64,000 nt of DNA from an uncultured Arthrobacter sp. (GTDB lineage: Bacteria; Actinomycetota; Actinomycetes; Actinomycetales; Micrococcaceae): NCBI RefSeq assembly GCF_947495145.1, contig NZ_CANLXP010000002.1, positions 124,001 to 188,000 on the forward strand, written 5' to 3'. The translations under genes were made by a program, and so were the position numbers. Under the pieces are notes generated by a model that saw nothing but the letters and a program-made list of their open reading frames with translations, searched no databases and was not told the origin of the DNA. This document shows positions 5,862-29,892 of this stretch, piece by piece; position 1 is the stretch's first letter, and every line of letters starts with the position of its first letter.

Positions 5862-7032
5862 CGGATACGTCGACTTCCGCAGCCGCGATGTCTGCCTGCT
5901 GCTCGGGGTTCAGTTGGCGTGCCTCGAGCCACCGTTCGGGGAGCGCGGTGCGCTTGGGCGAACCGGCCCGGCCGCGCGGGCCCTCGGCGTCGGCTCCCGG
6001 ATACGGGGACGTGCGGTCCAGCTGGTCCAGCAGGCCGCGCAGCACCTCGAGGGTGGGCACCGTGGCGAGCGCGGCCCGCAGATCTCCACCCACCACGTAG
6101 CCCTTGAAATACCAGGCCATGTGCTTGCGGATATCCCGCAGCGCCATCATCTCGTTGCCGAAGGTGTCCACCAGCAGTTCCGCGTGCCGGTACACGGTGT
6201 CCGCAACCTGCCCGAGCCCGGGCTGATGGCGTTCATCCTTGCCCTCGAAGGCGTTGACCAGATCACCGAAGAGCCAGGGCCTGCCCTGGCATCCACGGCC
6301 AATAACGACGCCGTCAACACCGGTCTGGTTGACCATGCGGACCGCGTCTTCCGCACTCCAGATGTCGCCGTTGCCCAGTACCGGGATGTCCGGCAAGGCT
6401 TCGCGCAGCTCAGCGATTGCGTTCCAGTCGGCCTTGCCGGAGTAGAACTGCGACGCGGTGCGTCCATGCAGTGCGACGGCGGCTACCCCGGCGTCGCGCG
6501 CGATTTTGCCTGCTTCGCGGAAGGTCAGATGATCGTCGTCGATGCCCTTGCGCATCTTGATGGTGAGCGGGATGTTCCCGCGTGCTGCTTCCCGCACGGC
6601 CGTCTGGACGATGCCGGTGAAAAGGTCGAGCTTCCAGGGCAGCGCCGCTCCGCCGCCCTTACGTGTGACCTTGGGAACGGGACAGCCGAAGTTGAGGTCT
6701 ATGTGGTCGGCGCGGTCTTCCTCCACGAGGATGCGGACGGCGGCGCCGACGGTCTTCGGATCCACCCCGTACAGCTGGACGGAGCGCACCTTTTCATCCT
6801 CGTCGTGCGAGATGATGCGCAGGGATTCCGGGTTGCGCTCAACGAGGGCGCGGGACGTCACCATCTCCGAGACGTACAGTCCGCCGCCGTACTCGCGGCA
6901 TAGCCGCCGGAATGCAGTGTTGGTGATGCCGGCCATCGGAGCGAGAACCACGGGGGTGTTGACGGTGATGCCGCCCAGGCGCAGCGGCGGAAGGTCAAGC
7001 CGCGTGGCGGTGGTTGTTGATGCAATGCTCAC
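5854..7032 (-). CDS. dusB: tRNA-dihydrouridine synthase (DusB family)
   Basis: Dus enzymes use FMN and NADPH to reduce specific uridines in tRNA. The 392-residue TIM-barrel protein shows the N-terminal PVVLAPMAGITNTAFR, the active-site NFGCPVPKVTRKGGGAAL with the catalytic Cys, KMRKGID, the HGRTASQFYSGKADW segment and the FMN-binding GNGDIW and GRGCQGRPW motifs. It is the first gene of the dusB-dgt-dnaG operon. The GTG start at 7032 is preceded by GGATGG. Confidence 0.95.
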   Translation of the reverse strand: MSIASTTTATRLDLPPLRLGGITVNTPVVLAPMAGITNTAFRRLCREYGGGLYVSEMVTSRALVERNPESLRIISHDEDEKVRSVQLYGVDPKTVGAAVRILVEEDRADHIDLNFGCPVPKVTRKGGGAALPWKLDLFTGIVQTAVREAARGNIPLTIKMRKGIDDDHLTFREAGKIARDAGVAAVALHGRTASQFYSGKADWNAIAELREALPDIPVLGNGDIWSAEDAVRMVNQTGVDGVVIGRGCQGRPWLFGDLVNAFEGKDERHQPGLGQVADTVYRHAELLVDTFGNEMMALRDIRKHMAWYFKGYVVGGDLRAALATVPTLEVLRGLLDQLDRTSPYPGADAEGPRGRAGSPKRTALPERWLEARQLNPEQQADIAAAEVDVSGG

Positions 7033-21417: not shown

Positions 21418-22674
21418 TCAGCGCACTGGCTCCCCGCCGCGCCATACCGCATGGGTCAACTGCATCCCCGGACGGTAGGCGAGGTGCGTTGCGGACGGTG
21501 CGTCCAGCAGCTGCAGGTCAGCCCGGTGTCCGACAGCGAGCGAACCCACGGCAAGCCGGCCGTCGTCGTCGTTCGGTTGTTCGCGATGCAGGGCAAGCGC
21601 TCCTCCATAGGTGGCTGCGCGGACGGCCTCGTGGACGGTGAGGCCCATCTGCAGCACGGCCGTCGCCACGCAGAACGCCATGGACGTGGTGTAGGAGGTG
21701 CCCGGGTTGCAGTTCGAAGCGAGCGCGATTGGAACTCCAGCGTCGAGCAGTTCCCTGGCGGGCGCGAGCGGCTGGCGGGTGGACAGATCACACGCGGGCA
21801 GGCATGTGGCGACGGTGCCCCGGTTGTTGGCATTCTGGCCCAACTGCCCGTTCCAGGCCGACTGACCGTTCCAGCTTGACCAGGATCCGGCGAGCGCGTC
21901 GATATCCGACTTTGTCAGATAGTTCACGTGGTCGACGCTGGCCGCTCCCTCGTCCACCGCGAGCTGTACGCCCTCCCCCGGCCCCAACTGGTTGCCGTGC
22001 ACGCGAAGCCCAAGCCCCGCCAGTCGGCAGGCGCGGAGCACTTCGCGGCTCTGGTCGGGAGTGAATGCGCCTGTCTCACAAAAGACATCGGCCCACTGCA
22101 CATAGGGCCGGACGGCGCTGAGCATGGGACCGGTGACCGTGCGAACGTACTCGTCGGCCGACCACCCCTCCGGCACGAGGTGCGCGCCGAGGAAGGTCAC
22201 CTCATCTGCCGTAGCGGCAGCGATCCGGGCGCTGCGGGCTTCTTCGGCCACATCCAGGCCGTAACCGGTTTTGGTTTCGAGGTAGGTGGTGCCGCCAGCT
22301 GCCGCCTCGGCGGCCCGCTGTGTCACCAGGTCGCCGAGTTCCTCATCCGTTGCCCGCCGGGTTGCCTCCACGGTGACTGAGATCCCGCCGGCGGCATAGG
22401 ACTGCCCGGACATCCGGGCTTCGAATTCGGCCGTGCGATCGCCGGCGAAGACCAGATGCGTGTGGCTGTCCACCCATCCGGGCAGGCAGGCGCGGCCCGC
22501 GGCGTCGTAGTGGCTATCAGCTGCAGGAGCGTCCGCGGCGGAACCGATCCAGGCGATCCGCTCGCCCTCGAAAACGATCGCCGCATCCGTCAGCACACGG
22601 TGCTCGGCGTCCTGCGTCATGAGTTCGCCGATGTTGGTGAGAATGGTTGACGCGTTACCCGCAGGTCCGGTCAT
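21418..22674 (-). CDS. hutI: Imidazolonepropionase HutI
   Basis: HutI hydrolyses 4-imidazolone-5-propionate to N-formimino-L-glutamate. The 418-residue metal-dependent amidohydrolase has the GWVDSHTHLVFAGDR motif with His71 and His73, TYLETKTGYGLD, FLGAHLVPEGW, HGNQLGPGEG and ALASNCNPGTSYTTSMAF. An insertion of about 20 residues rich in Trp, Asn, Gly and Gln (a repeated WNGQ) sits between DALAGS and GTVATCLPA, at a surface loop position. The start overlaps the hutF stop by 4 bp (22671-22674). It is the last hut gene of the hutI/hutF/M20 operon. Confidence 0.95.
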   Translation of the reverse strand: MTGPAGNASTILTNIGELMTQDAEHRVLTDAAIVFEGERIAWIGSAADAPAADSHYDAAGRACLPGWVDSHTHLVFAGDRTAEFEARMSGQSYAAGGISVTVEATRRATDEELGDLVTQRAAEAAAGGTTYLETKTGYGLDVAEEARSARIAAATADEVTFLGAHLVPEGWSADEYVRTVTGPMLSAVRPYVQWADVFCETGAFTPDQSREVLRACRLAGLGLRVHGNQLGPGEGVQLAVDEGAASVDHVNYLTKSDIDALAGSWSSWNGQSAWNGQLGQNANNRGTVATCLPACDLSTRQPLAPARELLDAGVPIALASNCNPGTSYTTSMAFCVATAVLQMGLTVHEAVRAATYGGALALHREQPNDDDGRLAVGSLAVGHRADLQLLDAPSATHLAYRPGMQLTHAVWRGGEPVR

Positions 22675-24080
22675 GGCTGTGCCTTTCGGATTGTAGCCGC
22701 CTCAGCTGTTATCGCCTCAGCTGGTGCTGCCCCGTCCACGCGTGCGATAGCCGCGGCCAGCAGTGGGCCCGGCAATCCCAGCCGGCTGTGGCGGCCGTTA
22801 AGGACGAGCAGTTCACCCCCGACGACGACGGCGTTGACGTCCTGCGCTGTGGCAGTCATCGGGAGCTGGGCCGGGGACGATCCAACCGTCCGCGCGCTTG
22901 CGTGATCGAGTGCCACCAGGTCGCACACCTGTCCCGGTACTAAGCCAGCCGGCACGCGACCCTGCGCTCGCGCGCCGCCGGCCGCGACTGCGCGCACCAG
23001 GTCACCCGGCGAGAACCGACCGCGCCGGCCGCCGGCCAGCCGTTCGCCGTGTTCCAGTGCCCGCATTTCAAGCCAGGGGTCGACGACGGCGTGCTGGTCG
23101 GTGCCCAGTGCCACCACGGCGCCGGCATCCTGCAGAGCCCGTGCGGGGCCGATGCCGTCGGCGAGGTCTGCCTCCGTGGTGGGGCACATCGCAACGGTGA
23201 CGCGGGCGTTGCCAAGAAGGTCAATGTCCTGCGGAGTCAGGTGTGTGGCGTGGACAACTGTCAGTCGTTCCGAAAGCAGATCGTGTCTGGCCAGCAACCC
23301 GGTCGGCGTGGTTCCGGTCGCTTCGAGGCAGTCACGGTTTTCGGCGGGCTGCTCGGAGAGGTGGATGTGCAGGGGTACGTCCCCGGGCAAATTCCGGGCG
23401 ATGAAGGCGAGCGCGGGTTCGTCGACCGCACGCACGGAGTGCAGGGCTGCGCCGACCGATACCTCCGATGCCGGGAAACTTTCGGCGACGGTCGCACGAA
23501 GGGACTGCCACCTGGTGAGCCAGGCCTCTGCGGTGCCATCGCTGAAGCGGGCCTGTTCCGGCAGGATCGGTGCCCCGAATCCGGAGGAGAGGTAGCAGGT
23601 GTCCAGCAGCGTCAGCCGGATGCCGGCGGTGACCGCCGCGCGGGCAAGGGCCAGTTCCAAGGCGTGCGGGCCGCCGTCGTAGGGCTCGCCGTAAGGCGTG
23701 CCGTCCGGCCGGTGGTGCACGTAGTGGAACTCGGCGACGCTGGTCCAGCCCGCGGCCACCATCTCGGTGTAGACGGCGGTGCCAAGTTCCTCGTACACCT
23801 CGGGGGTGAGGACGGCTGCCGCCTGGTACATTGCGTTCCGCCAGGTCCAGAAGGTGCCGGTGCCGGCGTGTGTCCGCCCGCGGAGGACCCGGTGGAAGGC
23901 ATGGGAGTGCGCGTTTGCGGCGGCCGGAAAAACGACGCCGTCCAGCACCAGGTCACCCGGTGCGGGTTCGGTAGCGCGAGTGACCCGGCGGACGATGCCG
24001 CTATCGTCGCACTCAACGCGCACTCCCGTCGCAATCTCTCCGGGCTCCATCCAGGCCTGTTCACACCACAGCGTATTCAC
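22671..24080 (-). CDS. hutF: Formimidoylglutamate deiminase HutF
   Basis: HutF deaminates N-formimino-L-glutamate to N-formyl-L-glutamate and ammonia. The 469-residue amidohydrolase has AANAHSHAFHRVLRGRTH with metal ligands His58 and His60, WTSVAEFHYVHHRPDG, PLHIHLSEQPAEN, VVHATHLT and VALGTDQHAVVDPW. The presence of HutF rather than HutG-type formiminoglutamase means the pathway must pass through N-formylglutamate. It overlaps hutI and the upstream M20 gene by 4 bp each. Confidence 0.95.
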   Translation of the reverse strand: MNTLWCEQAWMEPGEIATGVRVECDDSGIVRRVTRATEPAPGDLVLDGVVFPAAANAHSHAFHRVLRGRTHAGTGTFWTWRNAMYQAAAVLTPEVYEELGTAVYTEMVAAGWTSVAEFHYVHHRPDGTPYGEPYDGGPHALELALARAAVTAGIRLTLLDTCYLSSGFGAPILPEQARFSDGTAEAWLTRWQSLRATVAESFPASEVSVGAALHSVRAVDEPALAFIARNLPGDVPLHIHLSEQPAENRDCLEATGTTPTGLLARHDLLSERLTVVHATHLTPQDIDLLGNARVTVAMCPTTEADLADGIGPARALQDAGAVVALGTDQHAVVDPWLEMRALEHGERLAGGRRGRFSPGDLVRAVAAGGARAQGRVPAGLVPGQVCDLVALDHASARTVGSSPAQLPMTATAQDVNAVVVGGELLVLNGRHSRLGLPGPLLAAAIARVDGAAPAEAITAEAATIRKAQP

Positions 24081-25294
24081 AGCAGCCGCTCCAGCGCATC
24101 GGCGAGGGCGACGGCGCCGAAGTCGACGTCGTCGCCCTCAACGTATTCCTCGGGCGAATGGCTGATGCCTGTCGGGTTGCGTACGTACAGCATGGCTGAG
24201 GGCACGTGGGCGGCCAGGATGCCGGCGTCGTGCCCTGCACCGGTGGGCAGGCCGGGAGCGCCGGGGATGGCGAGTTGCAGTTGACGCTGGAGTTCACCGT
24301 CGAAGCTGACCGTGCCGCTGACCGACTCCCGGGTCAGGGCGGCAGTGCACCCCTCGAACGCGGCGGCTTTCTGGGCCTGGCCGTGGATGGACTCGACGAG
24401 CGCCGCGGTGGTGGCGTCATTCGGGTGCCGGAGGTCGATCCACAGGTCCACCCGGGAAGCGATCACGTTGGTGCCGCCCGGGATCGGCTGGATGCGGCCC
24501 ACGGTGGCACGGGCTTCGGGCGTCGCCGCAGCTGTCTTCCGGATGGCGAGGACCACCTGCGCGGCCGCAACCATGGGGTCGGCGCGGTCATCCATCAGGG
24601 TGGTGCCGGCGTGATTGCCCTGCCCGCTGATGGCCAGTTTCCACCGCCCGTGACCGATGATCGAGGTGCCTACCGCAATGGGCGCATCAAGGTCGATCAG
24701 GCCGCGGCCCTGCTCGACGTGCAGCTCGACGAAGTCGCCGATCCGGCGCAGCGCGTCATCGTCCCTGCCGAAGTGCTCGGGATTCAATCCATTGGCTCGT
24801 GCTGCTTCGGCGATGGTGACGCCGTCGGGATCTTTCAGGTTGCGCGCGGTGTCGGCGTCGATAGCGCCGGTCAGCAGCCGGGAACCCAGGCAGGCAACAC
24901 CGAAGCGCGAGCCTTCCTCTTCCGGAAACACCGTGACGGCAAGCGCCCGCTGGGGCTGGACGCCGCGCTTCTTCAGGAGATCGACGGCGGCCAGTGCAGA
25001 GGCGACACCGAGCGGACCGTCGAAAGCGCCGCCGCCGGGAACCGAGTCGAGGTGGCTGCCGGTGACGAGGGCACCCTGGCGACCGGCGTCGTCGTGCGTC
25101 TCCGTGTCCCACCAGGCCCAGAGGATCCCGTTGCGGTCGGTCTCCACGTCGAGTCCGCGCCGCTGGGCCTCTTCACGGAACCAGGACCTCAGGTCGAGTT
25201 CGGCGGTCGAGAAGACCGGACGGGAGTAGCCGCCGCGCACGGCGTCGCGCCCCACATCCTCAATCGAACCGAGCAGGCTGCTTACGCTCTCCAA
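24077..25294 (-). CDS. M20 family amidohydrolase (AllC/N-carbamoylase-like); candidate N-formylglutamate deformylase
   Basis: The 405-residue protein has the dimetal M20 motifs of the allantoate amidohydrolase group: GSHLDSVPGGGAFDG, FPEEEGSRFG, FVELHVEQGRGL, GQGNHAGTTLM and GAGHDAGILA. By family name it would cleave an N-carbamoyl or ureido amide. In this operon, however, it stands exactly where an N-formylglutamate deformylase is needed after HutF, and no other candidate is seen, so that role is inferred. The TTG start at 25294 is preceded by GGGAAGGGAA. It is the first gene of the M20-hutF-hutI operon. Confidence 0.85.
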   Translation of the reverse strand: MESVSSLLGSIEDVGRDAVRGGYSRPVFSTAELDLRSWFREEAQRRGLDVETDRNGILWAWWDTETHDDAGRQGALVTGSHLDSVPGGGAFDGPLGVASALAAVDLLKKRGVQPQRALAVTVFPEEEGSRFGVACLGSRLLTGAIDADTARNLKDPDGVTIAEAARANGLNPEHFGRDDDALRRIGDFVELHVEQGRGLIDLDAPIAVGTSIIGHGRWKLAISGQGNHAGTTLMDDRADPMVAAAQVVLAIRKTAAATPEARATVGRIQPIPGGTNVIASRVDLWIDLRHPNDATTAALVESIHGQAQKAAAFEGCTAALTRESVSGTVSFDGELQRQLQLAIPGAPGLPTGAGHDAGILAAHVPSAMLYVRNPTGISHSPEEYVEGDDVDFGAVALADALERLL

Positions 25295-25415: not shown

Positions 25416-25793
25416 GTGAGCGGACGTGTTGTGCATTTTGAGATCCCTTTCGACGACGGCGACCGCGCGCGGAGCTTCTACCGCGATGCATTCGGTTGGG
25501 ACGTGGCGCAGATGCCTGAGTTTGACTACACCGCTGCGGGCACCGGGCCGGCCGGCGAACAAGGGCCAACGGAGCCCGGCTACATCAACGGCGGCATGTT
25601 CAAGCGCGACGACGGGCCGCTGGCCGGGCCGATCATCACGATCGATGTCGAGGACATCGACGCCTGCGTGGCGAAGATCGAGTCGCTCGGAGGATCCGCC
25701 GTGGGCGAGAAGATGGCGGTCGGTGACATGGGCTTCGCCGCCTACTTCCGGGACCCCGAAGGCAATGTGATGGGCCTCTGGCAGAATCCCTGA
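25416..25793 (+). CDS. VOC family protein (glyoxalase-like)
   Basis: The 125-residue single-domain protein begins RVVHFEIPFDDGDRARSFYR and ends AAYFRDPEGNVMGLWQ, a layout typical of small VOC proteins related to the mycobacterial Cfp30B halves. The GTG start at 25416 follows GGAGGAG. It is encoded on the opposite strand between two hut transcription units, diverging from the M20 gene and converging on hutU. No link to histidine catabolism is evident. Confidence 0.85.
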   Translation: MSGRVVHFEIPFDDGDRARSFYRDAFGWDVAQMPEFDYTAAGTGPAGEQGPTEPGYINGGMFKRDDGPLAGPIITIDVEDIDACVAKIESLGGSAVGEKMAVGDMGFAAYFRDPEGNVMGLWQNP

Positions 25794-25812: not shown

Positions 25813-27492
25813 TCAGCGCTCCATGGGGATCCGCACTCCACGTTCACGGGCCACCTCCTGTGCGCGTTCATAACCGGCGTCCACATGGCGGATGACCCCG
25901 GTTCCCGGGTCATTGGTCAGCAGGCGTTCAAGCTTTTCGGCGGCGAGCGCCGTTCCATCGGCCACCGATACCTGCCCGGCGTGGATGGAGCGTCCGATGC
26001 CGACGCCGCCGCCATGGTGGATAGACACCCAGGTGGCGCCGGATGCGGTGTTGAGCATTGCGTTCAGCAGCGGCCAGTCGGCGATGGCGTCGGATCCATC
26101 AGCCATGGCTTCCGTCTCGCGGTAGGGCGAAGCGACCGAACCGGAGTCGAGGTGGTCACGGCCGATCACGATCGGCGCGGACACCTTGCCCTCAGCGACG
26201 AGGCGGTTGAAGAGCAGGCCCGCCTTCGCCCGGTCGCCGTAGCCGAGCCAGCAAATGCGTGCCGGCAGGCCTTCGAACTCGACGAGGTCTTTTGCGGCAT
26301 CGAGCCACCGGTGCAGGTGCTCGTTTTCGGGGAACAGGTCCTTGAGGGCTGCATCGGTGACTGCGATGTCCGCTGGGTCGCCGGATAGCGCAACCCAGCG
26401 GAAGGGGCCCATTCCCTCGCAGAACAGCGGACGGATGTAGGCCGGAACGAAGCCGGGGAACTCGAAGGCACGCTCATAGCCGCCCTTGCGTGCCTCGTCA
26501 CGGATGGAGTTGCCGTAGTCAAAGACCGTTGCTCCGGCATCCTGGAACCCGACCATCGCCTCCACATGACGGGCCATGGAGGTCTGCGCTTTCTTGGTGA
26601 AACCGTCCGGATCACCCGATGCTTCGCGTTCCCACTCGTCGACGCCGATGCCCTCGGGGAGGTAGCTCAACGGATCATGGGCGGAGGTTTGGTCCGTAAC
26701 GATGTCAATGGTGAACTCACCGTTTCGCTGGCGTTCCAGCAGCGCCGGCAGGATTTCGGCGGCGTTCCCGACGACGCCCACCGACAGGGCGCGCTTCCCG
26801 CGCTTCGCCTCGAGCACCTGTGCGAGGCCATCCTCAAGGTCGGCGGCGACGACGTCGAGGTAGCGTTTGGCGGACCGCCTGCGCAGGCGGGTTTCGCTGA
26901 CGTCGATGATCAGCACCGCGCCGCCGTTCAGGGTGACCGCCAGCGGCTGCGCACCGCCCATTCCGCCGCAGCCTGCTGTGAGGGTGAGAGTGCCGGCGAG
27001 GGATCCGTCGAACCGGGCTTTAGCTACGGCTGCGAAGGTTTCATAGGTCCCCTGCAGGATCCCCTGCGTGCCGATGTAGATCCAGGAGCCTGCGGTCATC
27101 TGCCCGTACATCATAAGTCCCTCCGCCTCCAGCCGCCGGAACTCAGGCCACGTTGCCCAGTCGCCCACGAGGTTCGAGTTGGCCAGAAGAACCCGAGGCG
27201 CCCAGGGGTTGGTGCGGAACACTCCCACCGGCTTGCCCGACTGCACCAACAGCGTTTCGTCTTCATCGAGGTCCTTCAGCGTGGCGACAATGGCGTCGTA
27301 CGCCTCCCAACTGCGCGCAGCCCGGCCCGTACCCCCATAGACGACGAGGTCTTCGGGCCGCTCAGCCACCTCGGGGTCGAGGTTGTTCATCAGCATGCGC
27401 AGGGGCGCCTCGGTCTGCCAGCTTTTCGCGGACAGCTCGGTGCCGCGCGGCGCCCGGACGGTGCGCGACGGATCGTGCTGGGTGAAAGTCAT
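25813..27492 (-). CDS. hutU: Urocanate hydratase HutU
   Basis: HutU adds water to urocanate to give 4-imidazolone-5-propionate, using tightly bound NAD+. The 559-residue length fits the family. Conserved segments include [40 protein letters not shown], the NAD-binding [29 protein letters not shown] and [17 protein letters not shown]. The start overlaps the stop of the IclR gene (ATGA, 27489-27492), so regulator and enzyme are cotranscribed. Confidence 0.97.
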
Positions 27493-28211
27493 GACTGTGC
27501 TCCTGTTGTCGAGGGCTCGTGAGTTGTAGGGGTTTCGATGCCGGTGGAGGAGGTGCCCTGCGGGGCGGCATCCGTCGGGGCTGCGAGGACGCCCGCCGCC
27601 TCGGCGGCGACCTGACGGCCGATCCGGCGGGCGCCGTCGTCGTCGATCCGGTAGCTCGGCACCACAACGCTGAGCGCCGCCACCACCTGTCCGCCCGACA
27701 GAACGGGCGCAGCGATGGCCGTAACGTCAGGTTCGATGCCGTTGCTGATCACCACGAAGCCGTCCTCAGGGGTGTCTCCGCTGAGAACAGCTCCGGCCGC
27801 TGATCCCTCCAACGGGATGCTCCTGCCCACCCAGCTGGTGTGGCGGACCGAGTGCGTTCCTTCCCGCACTGAGAGATAGATGCCGTGGCCGTCCGAGGAG
27901 GGCACGTTGAGGTAGGCCGACTCCCCCGTCGAGCTGACCAGCCGCTCAAGCGCGTCCTCAGCCAGCGACACAAGCGATTCATGGGAGAGCGCCTGCGCGC
28001 CGAGTTGGACCACCCGCATGCCCGGGCGGTAGCCGTCGTCGTCCCGGCGGACAAACCCTGTCCCCTCCAACGTGCGCAGCAGGCGCAGCGCGGTGGACGC
28101 CGAGAGGCCAGCGTCGCGGGCGGCGTCGGCGAGCGTCACCGATCCGCGATCGCACACCGTGCCGAGCAGCAGCAGCGCCCGTTCAACGGTGCGGGTGGAG
28201 GTATCCGCCAC
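27489..28211 (-). CDS. IclR family transcriptional regulator of the hut genes
   Basis: The 240-residue protein has an N-terminal winged helix ([19 protein letters not shown], then [20 protein letters not shown]) and a C-terminal IclR effector domain ([38 protein letters not shown]). It is divergent from hutH and overlaps hutU by 4 bp, so it most likely controls the histidine pathway; the effector would be urocanate by analogy, not shown. I place the start at GTG 28211 because AAGGAA lies upstream; a GTG at 28250 would extend the protein over the intergenic repeats. Confidence 0.9.
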
Positions 28212-28243
28212 GGGTTTCTTCCTTGCGTTCGGGGGACATTTGT

Positions 28244-28277
28244 ATTTCACTTATTGAAACGCTCATTTCACTGATTG
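28244..28277. promoter_or_regulatory. Direct repeats at the IclR-hutH divergent promoter
   Basis: ATTTCACTTATTG (28244-28256) and ATTTCACTGATTG (28265-28277) match at 12 of 13 bases, and their starts are 21 bp apart, two helical turns. The first copy also extends into a palindrome, TTTCActtatTGAAA. Candidate operator for the adjacent IclR regulator. Confidence 0.6.
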
Positions 28278-28314: not shown

Positions 28315-29892
28315 ATGCGGCACGGGACGATCGTCAGTATCGGTTTGGGAGCTCTGGCGCCGGCGGAGGTCGTCGACGTCGCGCGGTACGGCGCGAAGGT
28401 GGAGCTCAGCGAAGAGTCCCTGGCCGCCATGCAAGCGAGCCGCTCGGTTATCGACGCCCTTATCGATGATCCGACACCGCACTACGGCGTATCCACCGGC
28501 TTCGGCGCGCTGGCGACCAAGCACATCCCTGTCCAGGAGCGCACCCACCTGCAGCGCAGCCTCATCCGCAGCCACGCGGCGTCGTCGGGCGCGGAAGTTG
28601 ACCGTGAGGTGGTGCGCGGGCTGATGCTGGGCAGGCTCTCCACCATGGCCACCGGCCGGACAGGCGTGCGGCCGGTCGTCGCGCAGACCTACGCGGACAT
28701 GCTCAACGCGGGCATCACGCCGGTGATCGGCGAGTACGGCTCGCTCGGCTGCTCCGGCGACCTCGCGCCGCTGTCCCACGTGGCGCTGGCCCTCATGGGT
28801 GAGGGCGAGGTGAGGAACGACGTCGGCGCGCTGCTGCCTGCCGCTGAGGCGCTCGATGCCGCCGGCATCGCCCCCGTCGAACTGCGGGAAAAGGAGGGCC
28901 TTGCCCTCATCAACGGCACCGACGGCATGCTGGGCATGCTGGTCCTTGCGTCCGCCGACCTTCTTCGGCTGCTGCGTACTGCCGACCTTGCCGCTGCAAT
29001 GAGCGTCGAGGGCCTGTTGGGTACCGACAGCGTCTTTGCAGAGGACCTGCACCGGCTTCGGCCGCATCCGGGCCAGCTTGTTTCCGCTGCAAACATTCGC
29101 CGGGTGCTGTCCGGGTCACGGCTGATCGGCGAGCATGCGTCGGAGGAGCGCAAGGCGCATCGTTTCACCCGGGTCCAGGACGCTTATTCGCTGCGGTGCG
29201 CGCCGCAGGTTCACGGGGCAGCGCGGGCAACCCTGGCGCACGTCGAATCGGTGGCTGCGATCGAGCTGGGTTCGGCAATCGACAATCCGGTGGTGACTGT
29301 TGACGGCCGGGTTGAATCGAACGGCAACTTCCATGGCGCACCGATCGGGTATGCACTCGACTTCCTCGCGATCGCCGTCGCTGACCTCGCCTCCATGAGC
29401 GAACGCCGCACCGACCGGTTCCTCGACAAGAGCCGCAACCACGGCCTCAATCCGTTCCTGGCCCATGATCCGGGCGTGGACTCCGGCCACATGATCGCCC
29501 AGTACACCCAGGCCGGCATCGTGTCCGAGCTCAAGCGCCTTGCGGTCCCGGCGTCCGTTGACTCCATCCCGTCCTCGGCCATGCAGGAGGACCACGTGTC
29601 GATGGGCTGGTCCGCGGGCCTGAAGCTGCGGCGCGCATTGGACGGACTCACCCGCGTGGTGGCAGTCGAGCTGCTGACCGCCGCCCGTGCGCTGGACATG
29701 CGCGACGGCGGCATCAGCACCTCCTGCAGTTCTCCTGCCATCCATGCGGCGCGGACTGCTATCCGCGAGGTAGTCGAAGGGCCGGGAACCGACCGGTATC
29801 TCGCGCCTGAAATCGAGGCCGTGCGGAAGCTGGTGGAGGCTGGGTCGGTACTCACCGCCGTCGACCGCGTGCTGGGCGAGCCGCTCGCGTAG
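28315..29892 (+). CDS. hutH: Histidine ammonia-lyase HutH
   Basis: HutH removes ammonia from L-histidine to give trans-urocanate. The 525-residue protein has the active-site Tyr57 in HYGVSTGFG, and the MIO-forming motif EYGSLGCSGDLAPLSH at 140-155. Here the triad is Cys146-Ser147-Gly148 rather than Ala-Ser-Gly; MIO can form from CSG as well. Other conserved parts are QDAYSLRCAPQVHGA, ESNGNFHGAPI and SMQEDHVSMGW (as SSAMQEDHVSMGW). It is transcribed alone, divergent from the IclR-hutU unit, with a terminator at 29972-30006. Confidence 0.97.
   Translation: MRHGTIVSIGLGALAPAEVVDVARYGAKVELSEESLAAMQASRSVIDALIDDPTPHYGVSTGFGALATKHIPVQERTHLQRSLIRSHAASSGAEVDREVVRGLMLGRLSTMATGRTGVRPVVAQTYADMLNAGITPVIGEYGSLGCSGDLAPLSHVALALMGEGEVRNDVGALLPAAEALDAAGIAPVELREKEGLALINGTDGMLGMLVLASADLLRLLRTADLAAAMSVEGLLGTDSVFAEDLHRLRPHPGQLVSAANIRRVLSGSRLIGEHASEERKAHRFTRVQDAYSLRCAPQVHGAARATLAHVESVAAIELGSAIDNPVVTVDGRVESNGNFHGAPIGYALDFLAIAVADLASMSERRTDRFLDKSRNHGLNPFLAHDPGVDSGHMIAQYTQAGIVSELKRLAVPASVDSIPSSAMQEDHVSMGWSAGLKLRRALDGLTRVVAVELLTAARALDMRDGGISTSCSSPAIHAARTAIREVVEGPGTDRYLAPEIEAVRKLVEAGSVLTAVDRVLGEPLA

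Follow-up and report, generated by a model that had tools for sequence, protein, structure and literature searches.

The window analysed here, a stretch of 64,000 nucleotides from an uncultured Arthrobacter sp. (contig NZ_CANLXP010000002.1), contains a cluster of histidine utilization (hut) genes in which hutF overlaps an open reading frame (ORF) for an amidohydrolase of the M20 family (24077-25294, minus strand; 405 aa, TTG start). This M20 protein probably serves an actinobacterial hut pathway as its N-formyl-L-glutamate deformylase (EC 3.5.1.68, N-formylglutamate amidohydrolase), an assignment made from sequence and built on the family and residues of the protein, the absence of HutG, the co-occurrence of the gene with hutF, and its exchange with a peptide deformylase (PDF) in other genomes. 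In the proposed route, histidine would be degraded through urocanate, imidazolonepropionate, and formiminoglutamate to N-formylglutamate, the product of HutF, which the M20 enzyme would convert to L-glutamate and formate. The protein would be a non-orthologous replacement of HutG, the N-formylglutamate deformylase/amidohydrolase of the FGase family (PF05013) as found in pseudomonads, and a PDF paralogue would take the same role in other actinobacterial lineages, including many Acidimicrobiia.

The assembly (3.55 Mb in 57 contigs, completeness 99.97) gives no match to FGase anywhere in its length, while the same search is positive in a Caulobacter control genome. The sole protein of the arginase family (PF00491) is an agmatinase (NF002564, 311.8 bits, cut-off 302) and scores only 126.7 bits against the formimidoylglutamase HutG model TIGR01227 (cut-off 229.15). 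The genome also has three PDF-family matches, which were considered as the hut enzyme and rejected, as none of the three is reached by the hut-type PDF model at 1e-30. The original prediction, made from the sequence of the window, had stated that no HutG-type gene is present and had named a distinct HutG gene at another place in the genome as evidence that would count against it; such a gene was searched for and not found, and the statement holds for the whole assembly rather than for the window alone. With no FGase, no formimidoylglutamase, and no PDF of the hut type, the product of HutF is left without a known enzyme in this assembly.

Presence of the two genes, scored as a match over cut-off (NF006681 for hutF, NF006770 for the M20 gene), was compared in samples of 197 Actinomycetota genomes and 149 genomes of the window's order. 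At the level of the phylum, hutF is found in 44 genomes, and each of the 25 genomes with NF006770 is one of these 44 (Fisher p 5e-20, a value that, like the others given here, takes no account of shared ancestry). The order has 53 genomes with hutF and 55 with NF006770; both are present in 52, the M20 gene only in three (G241, G282, and G310), hutF only in one (G265), and neither in 93 (p 3e-35). A tblastn search places hutF next to the M20 gene in G310 (locus L268), leaving two M20-only exceptions. Eight of the 52 genomes carry the two genes at a distance of more than 20 kb or on separate contigs (G235, G264, G290, G303, G340, G308, G227, and G285), and since both are kept despite the separation, the link between them is more than one of neighbourhood. 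Within the order, FGase shows no association with hutF (4/53 genomes with hutF, 5/96 others, p 0.72). The hutF matches of five genomes (G168, G174, G084, G196, and G115) contain one internal stop, which could reflect errors in the assembly or a protein that ends earlier.

Peptide deformylases take the formyl group off an amino-acid nitrogen, and it is a protein of this family that stands in for the M20 gene in other hut clusters. When the loci around hutF were searched by tblastn in all 44 phylum genomes that have the gene, an M20 gene of the window's group (clade A) adjoins hutF in 26, lying in the slot between hutU and hutF in 19; in the remaining seven, hutU falls outside the stretch or the gene order differs. 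One genome (G124, locus L018, truncated at a contig end) was counted as clade A on a partial match only. A second, divergent group of M20 genes (clade B) is present in the cluster in 5/44 genomes, either adjoining hutH or in the interval that separates it from hutU. Five further genomes (G088, G178, G094, G139, and G154) have no M20 gene there and instead encode a PDF of ~191 aa, located between hutU and hutF in four of them (L007 6759-7334, minus strand; L008 7007-7582, L005 4934-5518, and L006 6800-7384, all plus strand) and between hutF and hutI in the fifth (L009 8144-8719, plus strand). Two candidate enzymes occur together in none of the 44 loci, and a single family (f14) has the M20 gene in four genomes and the PDF in one (G094). 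The occupation of the M20 slot by a PDF in other lineages is read most economically if both enzymes deformylate N-formylglutamate. At L006, a gene of the PhyH type (phytanoyl-CoA dioxygenase family; 5946-6800, plus strand) lies between hutU and the PDF, and a gap of ~0.8 kb occurs at this position in several further hut clusters of the PDF type.

A wider scan, in which named genome contigs were searched with the five hut-linked PDFs, gave 443 relatives, the best 80 of which (L125-L204) were examined; three of these are the same genes as among the 44 genomes. Hut genes are nearby in 64 of the best 80 and hutF in 63. The PDF shares the strand of hutF in 63/63 of these loci and is upstream of hutF in 62, within 250 bp of it in 61, and between hutU and hutF in 60. 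In one locus (L184) the PDF follows hutI. None of the best 80 loci has an M20 match, and 33 have an IclR match, to a regulator similar to that of the window's cluster. The records are mostly actinobacterial metagenome-assembled genomes, many from Acidimicrobiia/Ilumatobacteraceae and some from Solirubrobacterales/Thermoleophilaceae, with Desertimonas flava and Salsipaludibacter albus as cultured organisms of the PDF type. Catalytic motifs are kept in 69/69 hut-linked PDF rows (a few rows being one protein from two sources), and the predicted fold of a hut-linked PDF is that of a standard PDF (predicted local distance difference test score (pLDDT) 95.4; template modelling score to the Leptospira PDF 1sv2 0.97 by target length and 0.87 by query length). 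All 10 genomes checked have two PDF matches, 7 of the 10 including a hut-linked copy. A RYPYKP insert was considered as a hut-specific mark of these PDFs and rejected, being present in the 16 loci with no hut gene nearby, with a similar stretch in the Leptospira PDF. In G108, a diverged hut-type PDF (C6:3400-3957, 250.9 bits) and a sub-cut-off hutF match (C2:242352-243353, 346.8 bits) are both away from the hutH-hutU-hutI cluster (L058). The hut clusters L209-L216 (f7) carry a diverged HutF-like protein (~230-263 bits) by hutU or hutH.

The M20 protein exceeds the cut-offs of TIGR01879 (hydantoinase/carbamoylase family; 281.1 bits, cut-off 204) and NF006770 ('allantoate amidohydrolase', PRK09290.1-4; 606.5 bits, cut-off 372), and its Pfam scan gives M20, M28, and M20_dimer only, with no match to PF05013. 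The solved structures closest to it in sequence are the L-carbamoylase 3n5f, the ureidoglycolate hydrolase (UAH) 4pxe/4pxb, and the allantoate amidohydrolase AllC 1z2l. At nine positions (H81, D92, E126, E127, H192, H228, N276, R289, and H379), at least 95% of 78 clade-A rows carry the residue of the family, as do 3n5f, 1z2l, and 4pxe; going by the M20 family, these would be dimetal ligands, a glutamate base, and histidine, arginine, and asparagine residues for the substrate. These positions and the two models over cut-off agree with the dimetal amidohydrolase suggested from the sequence of the window. H215, R217, R372, and N373 are present in 78/78 clade-A rows, and W38, W59, W61, and W285 reach at least 96%. 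At the positions of H215 and N373, all three solved references have other residues. An AlphaFold model of the M20 protein alone has a pLDDT of 36.1 and was not used for any claim.

Substrate and chemistry are proposed, as is the role of each residue, which follows what is known of the family. In a mechanism modelled on the carbamoylase/AllC enzymes of the M20 family, two metals held by H81, D92, E127, H192, and H379 would activate a water molecule, with E126 as the putative general base. H228 from the dimer partner would stabilise the tetrahedral intermediate, N276 and R289 would bind the alpha-carboxylate, and H215, R217, R372, and N373 are candidate readers of the glutamate side chain. The family is chemically capable of such a reaction, since a report on a tandem of a racemase and the Geobacillus stearothermophilus L-carbamoylase (PMC7431475) states that N-formyl substrates are recognised more efficiently than N-carbamoyl substrates.

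A total of 94 M20 copies were compared, for which sub-cut-off matches were fetched in part; the truncated L018 was left out of the tree of clades A and B, and the broken L268 out of the clade-A tree. AllC 1z2l, UAH 4pxe, and L-carbamoylase 3n5f branch outside clade A, and clade B (f16) is far from it. Two separate recruitments of M20 proteins to hut were considered on the basis of this separation, but a single clade is compatible with the approximately unbiased test (p 0.147). Hut-linked copies make up 65/78 clade-A tree rows, and 45/57 in the order (41/53 plus L033, L035, L037, and L039). The subclade of the window's M20 protein (27 rows, support 99*) comprises 15 hut-linked copies (f1, f59, and f62), 10 copies next to a flavin adenine dinucleotide (FAD) oxidase related to N-methyl-tryptophan oxidase/sarcosine oxidase, and two others, with the two kinds interleaved. 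Loci outside hut that pair the M20 gene with the FAD oxidase include L257 (5550-7884), L255 (6054-8509), L256 (2223-4602), L266 (5003-7388), and L269 (5345-7647), and further L261 (with a short oxidase piece only), L274, L301, L302, and L313. Two of these pairs are in genomes without a hutF match (G241 and G282). In five f65 genomes the sole NF006770 copy is away from hutF (four by the FAD oxidase, one unlinked), and the hut clusters of three f65 genomes (G235, G264, and G303) contain no M20 gene. Near the pair in L255, one gene exceeds the threshold of the model NF004848 ('tyramine oxidase subunit B'; 525.9 bits, cut-off 362) and another encodes an ammonium transporter; homologues are in L256.

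The idea that an M20 protein acts as the deformylase is neither new nor untried. Table 3 of Gerdes et al. (2011; PMC3223725) lists, as case 20, COG0624 as an 'Alternative form of N-formylglutamate deformylase (EC 3.5.1.68)', predicted from the SEED subsystem 'Experimental - Histidine Degradation', with the status 'No deformylase activity detected in Streptomyces avermitilis protein' and a place among the families 'invalidated by us'. This negative assay, as it is given in the table, is the main weight against the present assignment, although the protein assayed may not have been the hut-linked one. Possible reasons for the result are a wrong metal, poor folding, or a species in which another enzyme takes over; as regards the last of these, six of the seven hutF-bearing genomes of f4, presumed from their size (7-10 Mb) to be Streptomyces, carry FGase at another place in the genome. 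No further mention of the idea beyond PMC3223725, and no report of a peptide-deformylase exchange in hut clusters, was found in the open-access literature.

Several other observations weigh against the assignment. The co-occurrence p-values are inflated by shared ancestry. Across the phylum, FGase is associated with hutF (10/44 genomes with hutF, 6/153 without, p 3e-4), with 9 of the 10 genomes that have both belonging to families f4 and f14. FGase next to hut genes was considered as well and rejected, as a tblastn search of 13 FGase loci (12 genes, L003 and L227 being the same; L001-L004, L022, L023, L227, and L249-L254) gave no match to a hut gene, with ~1.5 kb visible per side in the small loci L249-L254 and L002 (3.6-3.7 kb). 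The clade-B M20 genes lie outside the hutU-hutF slot, and all three enzymes are missing from the cluster in 8/44 hutF genomes (G017, G179, G056, G168, G095, and G196, and the contig-edge cases G184 and G115). Ten flanking ORFs in all, taken from G017, G179, G056, G168, and G196, include no deformylase (they encode transporter parts, LGT, dehydrogenases, a methyltransferase, and others), and in G095, G184, and G115 tblastn, the one search used there, gave no candidate; G056 and G196 have an unlinked M20 gene branching beside clade A. In G008, of the same family and with hutH and hutU as its only hut genes, the flanking genes are uninformative. In the wider scan, the hut-linked share of the best 80 PDFs is not that of all 443, and 16 of the best 80 loci have no local hut gene (Myxococcota, 'Deltaproteobacteria', and one Phycisphaerales). 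Among the 197 phylum genomes, G108 (8.5e-75) and G159 (7.4e-48) match the hut-type PDF model more weakly, and neither has hutF over cut-off. Finally, 10 copies of the subclade lie beside the FAD oxidase, and for two of these the genome gives no hutF match, which means that this enzyme type also has a role outside hut. Either one enzyme serves both kinds of locus or the two tasks are chemically similar.

These FAD-linked copies are the basis of an alternative in which the basic job of the clade is a reaction linked to the FAD oxidase in a pathway for N-substituted amino acids, the hut copies hydrolyse an accessory or side product, and N-formylglutamate is deformylated by an unlinked enzyme. The interleaving of the two kinds of copy, the M20 genes of G241 and G282, the eight hutF genomes without a cluster candidate, and the negative assay as tabulated in 2011 all fit this explanation, but it is unlikely, since most clade-A copies are hut-linked, the five f65 genomes keep the M20 gene although it is away from hutF, and the replacement by a PDF names the chemistry. 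It is also improbable that the protein is an N-carbamoyl-L-glutamate amidohydrolase salvaging hydantoin-5-propionate, the oxidation product of imidazolonepropionate, in the manner of the enzyme named ErtE in ergothioneine breakdown. The M20 protein is similar to the ErtE model NF058540 (281.6 bits; ErtE being known here by its NCBIfam label alone), the chemistry is that of the same family, and the negative deformylase assay listed in PMC3223725 would be consistent with it. The score is, however, far below the ErtE cut-off of 520, none of six scanned hut-cluster proteins is ErtD-like (hutI reaches 24.5 bits against NF058538, cut-off 600), and the explanation provides no enzyme for the N-formylglutamate that comes from HutF and does not account for the PDF in the same place.

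The curated NCBIfam label of the equivalog NF006770 stands against deformylation of N-formylglutamate and would make the protein a true allantoate amidohydrolase of ureide catabolism that merely neighbours the hut genes. Despite the 606.5 bits to this model, such a function is very improbable: the score against the AllC model TIGR03176 is 192.6 bits, far short of its cut-off of 597.75, the AllC, UAH, and L-carbamoylase references fall outside the clade, H215 and N373 are invariant within it and different in all three, and hutF is present in 52/55 genomes with NF006770. The assignment as N-formylglutamate deformylase, which the original prediction had drawn from gene context, gains support well beyond that context from the co-occurrence with hutF and the exchange with a PDF, and is weakened by its earlier proposal with a negative assay of the S. 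avermitilis protein in the 2011 table and by the FAD oxidase beside part of the subclade. It further appears likely, if with somewhat less confidence, that the last step of the HutF route is filled by three unrelated, mutually replacing folds, namely FGase, an AllC-like M20 protein (perhaps recruited twice, as clades A and B), and a duplicated PDF turned from protein maturation to small-molecule catabolism, in which case the 2011 invalidation would have missed a real activity or would hold for the tested species alone.

The hut genes proposed from the sequence of the window (HutH, HutU, HutI, and HutF) are borne out by NCBIfam matches. The supplier of N-formylglutamate, hutF (formimidoylglutamate deiminase; 22671-24080, minus strand), matches NF006681 (524.3 bits, cut-off 362) and TIGR02022 (414.3 bits, cut-off 413.05), and hutI (imidazolonepropionase; 21418-22674, minus strand) reaches 298.0 bits against TIGR01224, barely below the cut-off of 298.15. 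Also on the minus strand are hutU (urocanate hydratase; 25813-27492; TIGR01228, 887.3 bits, cut-off 375) and a gene for an IclR-family regulator that overlaps it by 4 bp (27489-28250; PF01614, PF09339); hutH (histidine ammonia-lyase; 28315-29892, plus strand; TIGR01225, 619.9 bits, cut-off 539.15) is divergent, and no convincing inverted repeats were seen around the intergenic region between hutH and the IclR gene. The 4-bp overlap of the M20 gene with hutF noted in the original prediction is correct, as GTGA at 24077-24080 is common to the M20 stop codon TGA and the GTG start of hutF, and the start of hutI overlaps the end of hutF by 4 bp. A small ORF on the opposite strand (25416-25793, plus strand; 125 aa, VOC-like by eye), for which no NCBIfam match was found at 1e-15 and which is not thought to be part of the pathway, lies between hutU and the M20 gene. 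The minus-strand order is thus IclR-hutU, the small plus-strand gene, and M20-hutF-hutI, and because of the intervening gene the last three probably form their own transcription unit; the placement of the M20 gene in the hut operon stands as regards its cluster position and overlap with hutF, but hutU is probably split off from it.

If the assignment is true, many actinobacterial 'allantoate amidohydrolase' labels are wrong (NF006770 occurs in 25/197 genomes of the phylum and 55/149 of the order), a gap in the textbook histidine pathway is closed, and a peptide deformylase has been recruited for amino-acid catabolism. The presence of a PDF in the same hut slot reopens an idea rejected by one published assay, as that assay is summarised in PMC3223725. 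The hypothesis for an actinobacterial M20 protein is the same as the one listed there as invalidated, while the PDF exchange and the genome-wide co-occurrence are added here and are not in the available portions of that paper. Among FGase-family proteins, PMC6529630 describes one from Streptomyces coelicolor that is proposed to act on gamma-glutamylglycine; in a 9.2-Mb genome of the present sample (G023), a gene of this family (L022 5353-6147, minus strand) lies at a distance from hut and close to a gene for a monomeric isocitrate dehydrogenase.

Compared with HutG of the FGase family, the M20 protein would catalyse the same reaction at the same place in the pathway, after HutF, but it belongs to an unrelated sequence family. 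With 3n5f, 1z2l, and 4pxe/4pxb it shares the family model and the catalytic positions, and it differs from 3n5f, 1z2l, and 4pxe in its separate clade, its hut context, and its own H215, N373, W61, and W285. ErtE (NF058540) belongs to the same superfamily and has, by its label, a glutamate-side substrate, but the M20 protein scores below the ErtE cut-off. The PDF of the hut slot has its fold and motifs in common with the Leptospira interrogans PDF 1sv2, its closest solved relative, and is unlike an ordinary PDF in being a hut-embedded copy beside a second PDF of the same genome.

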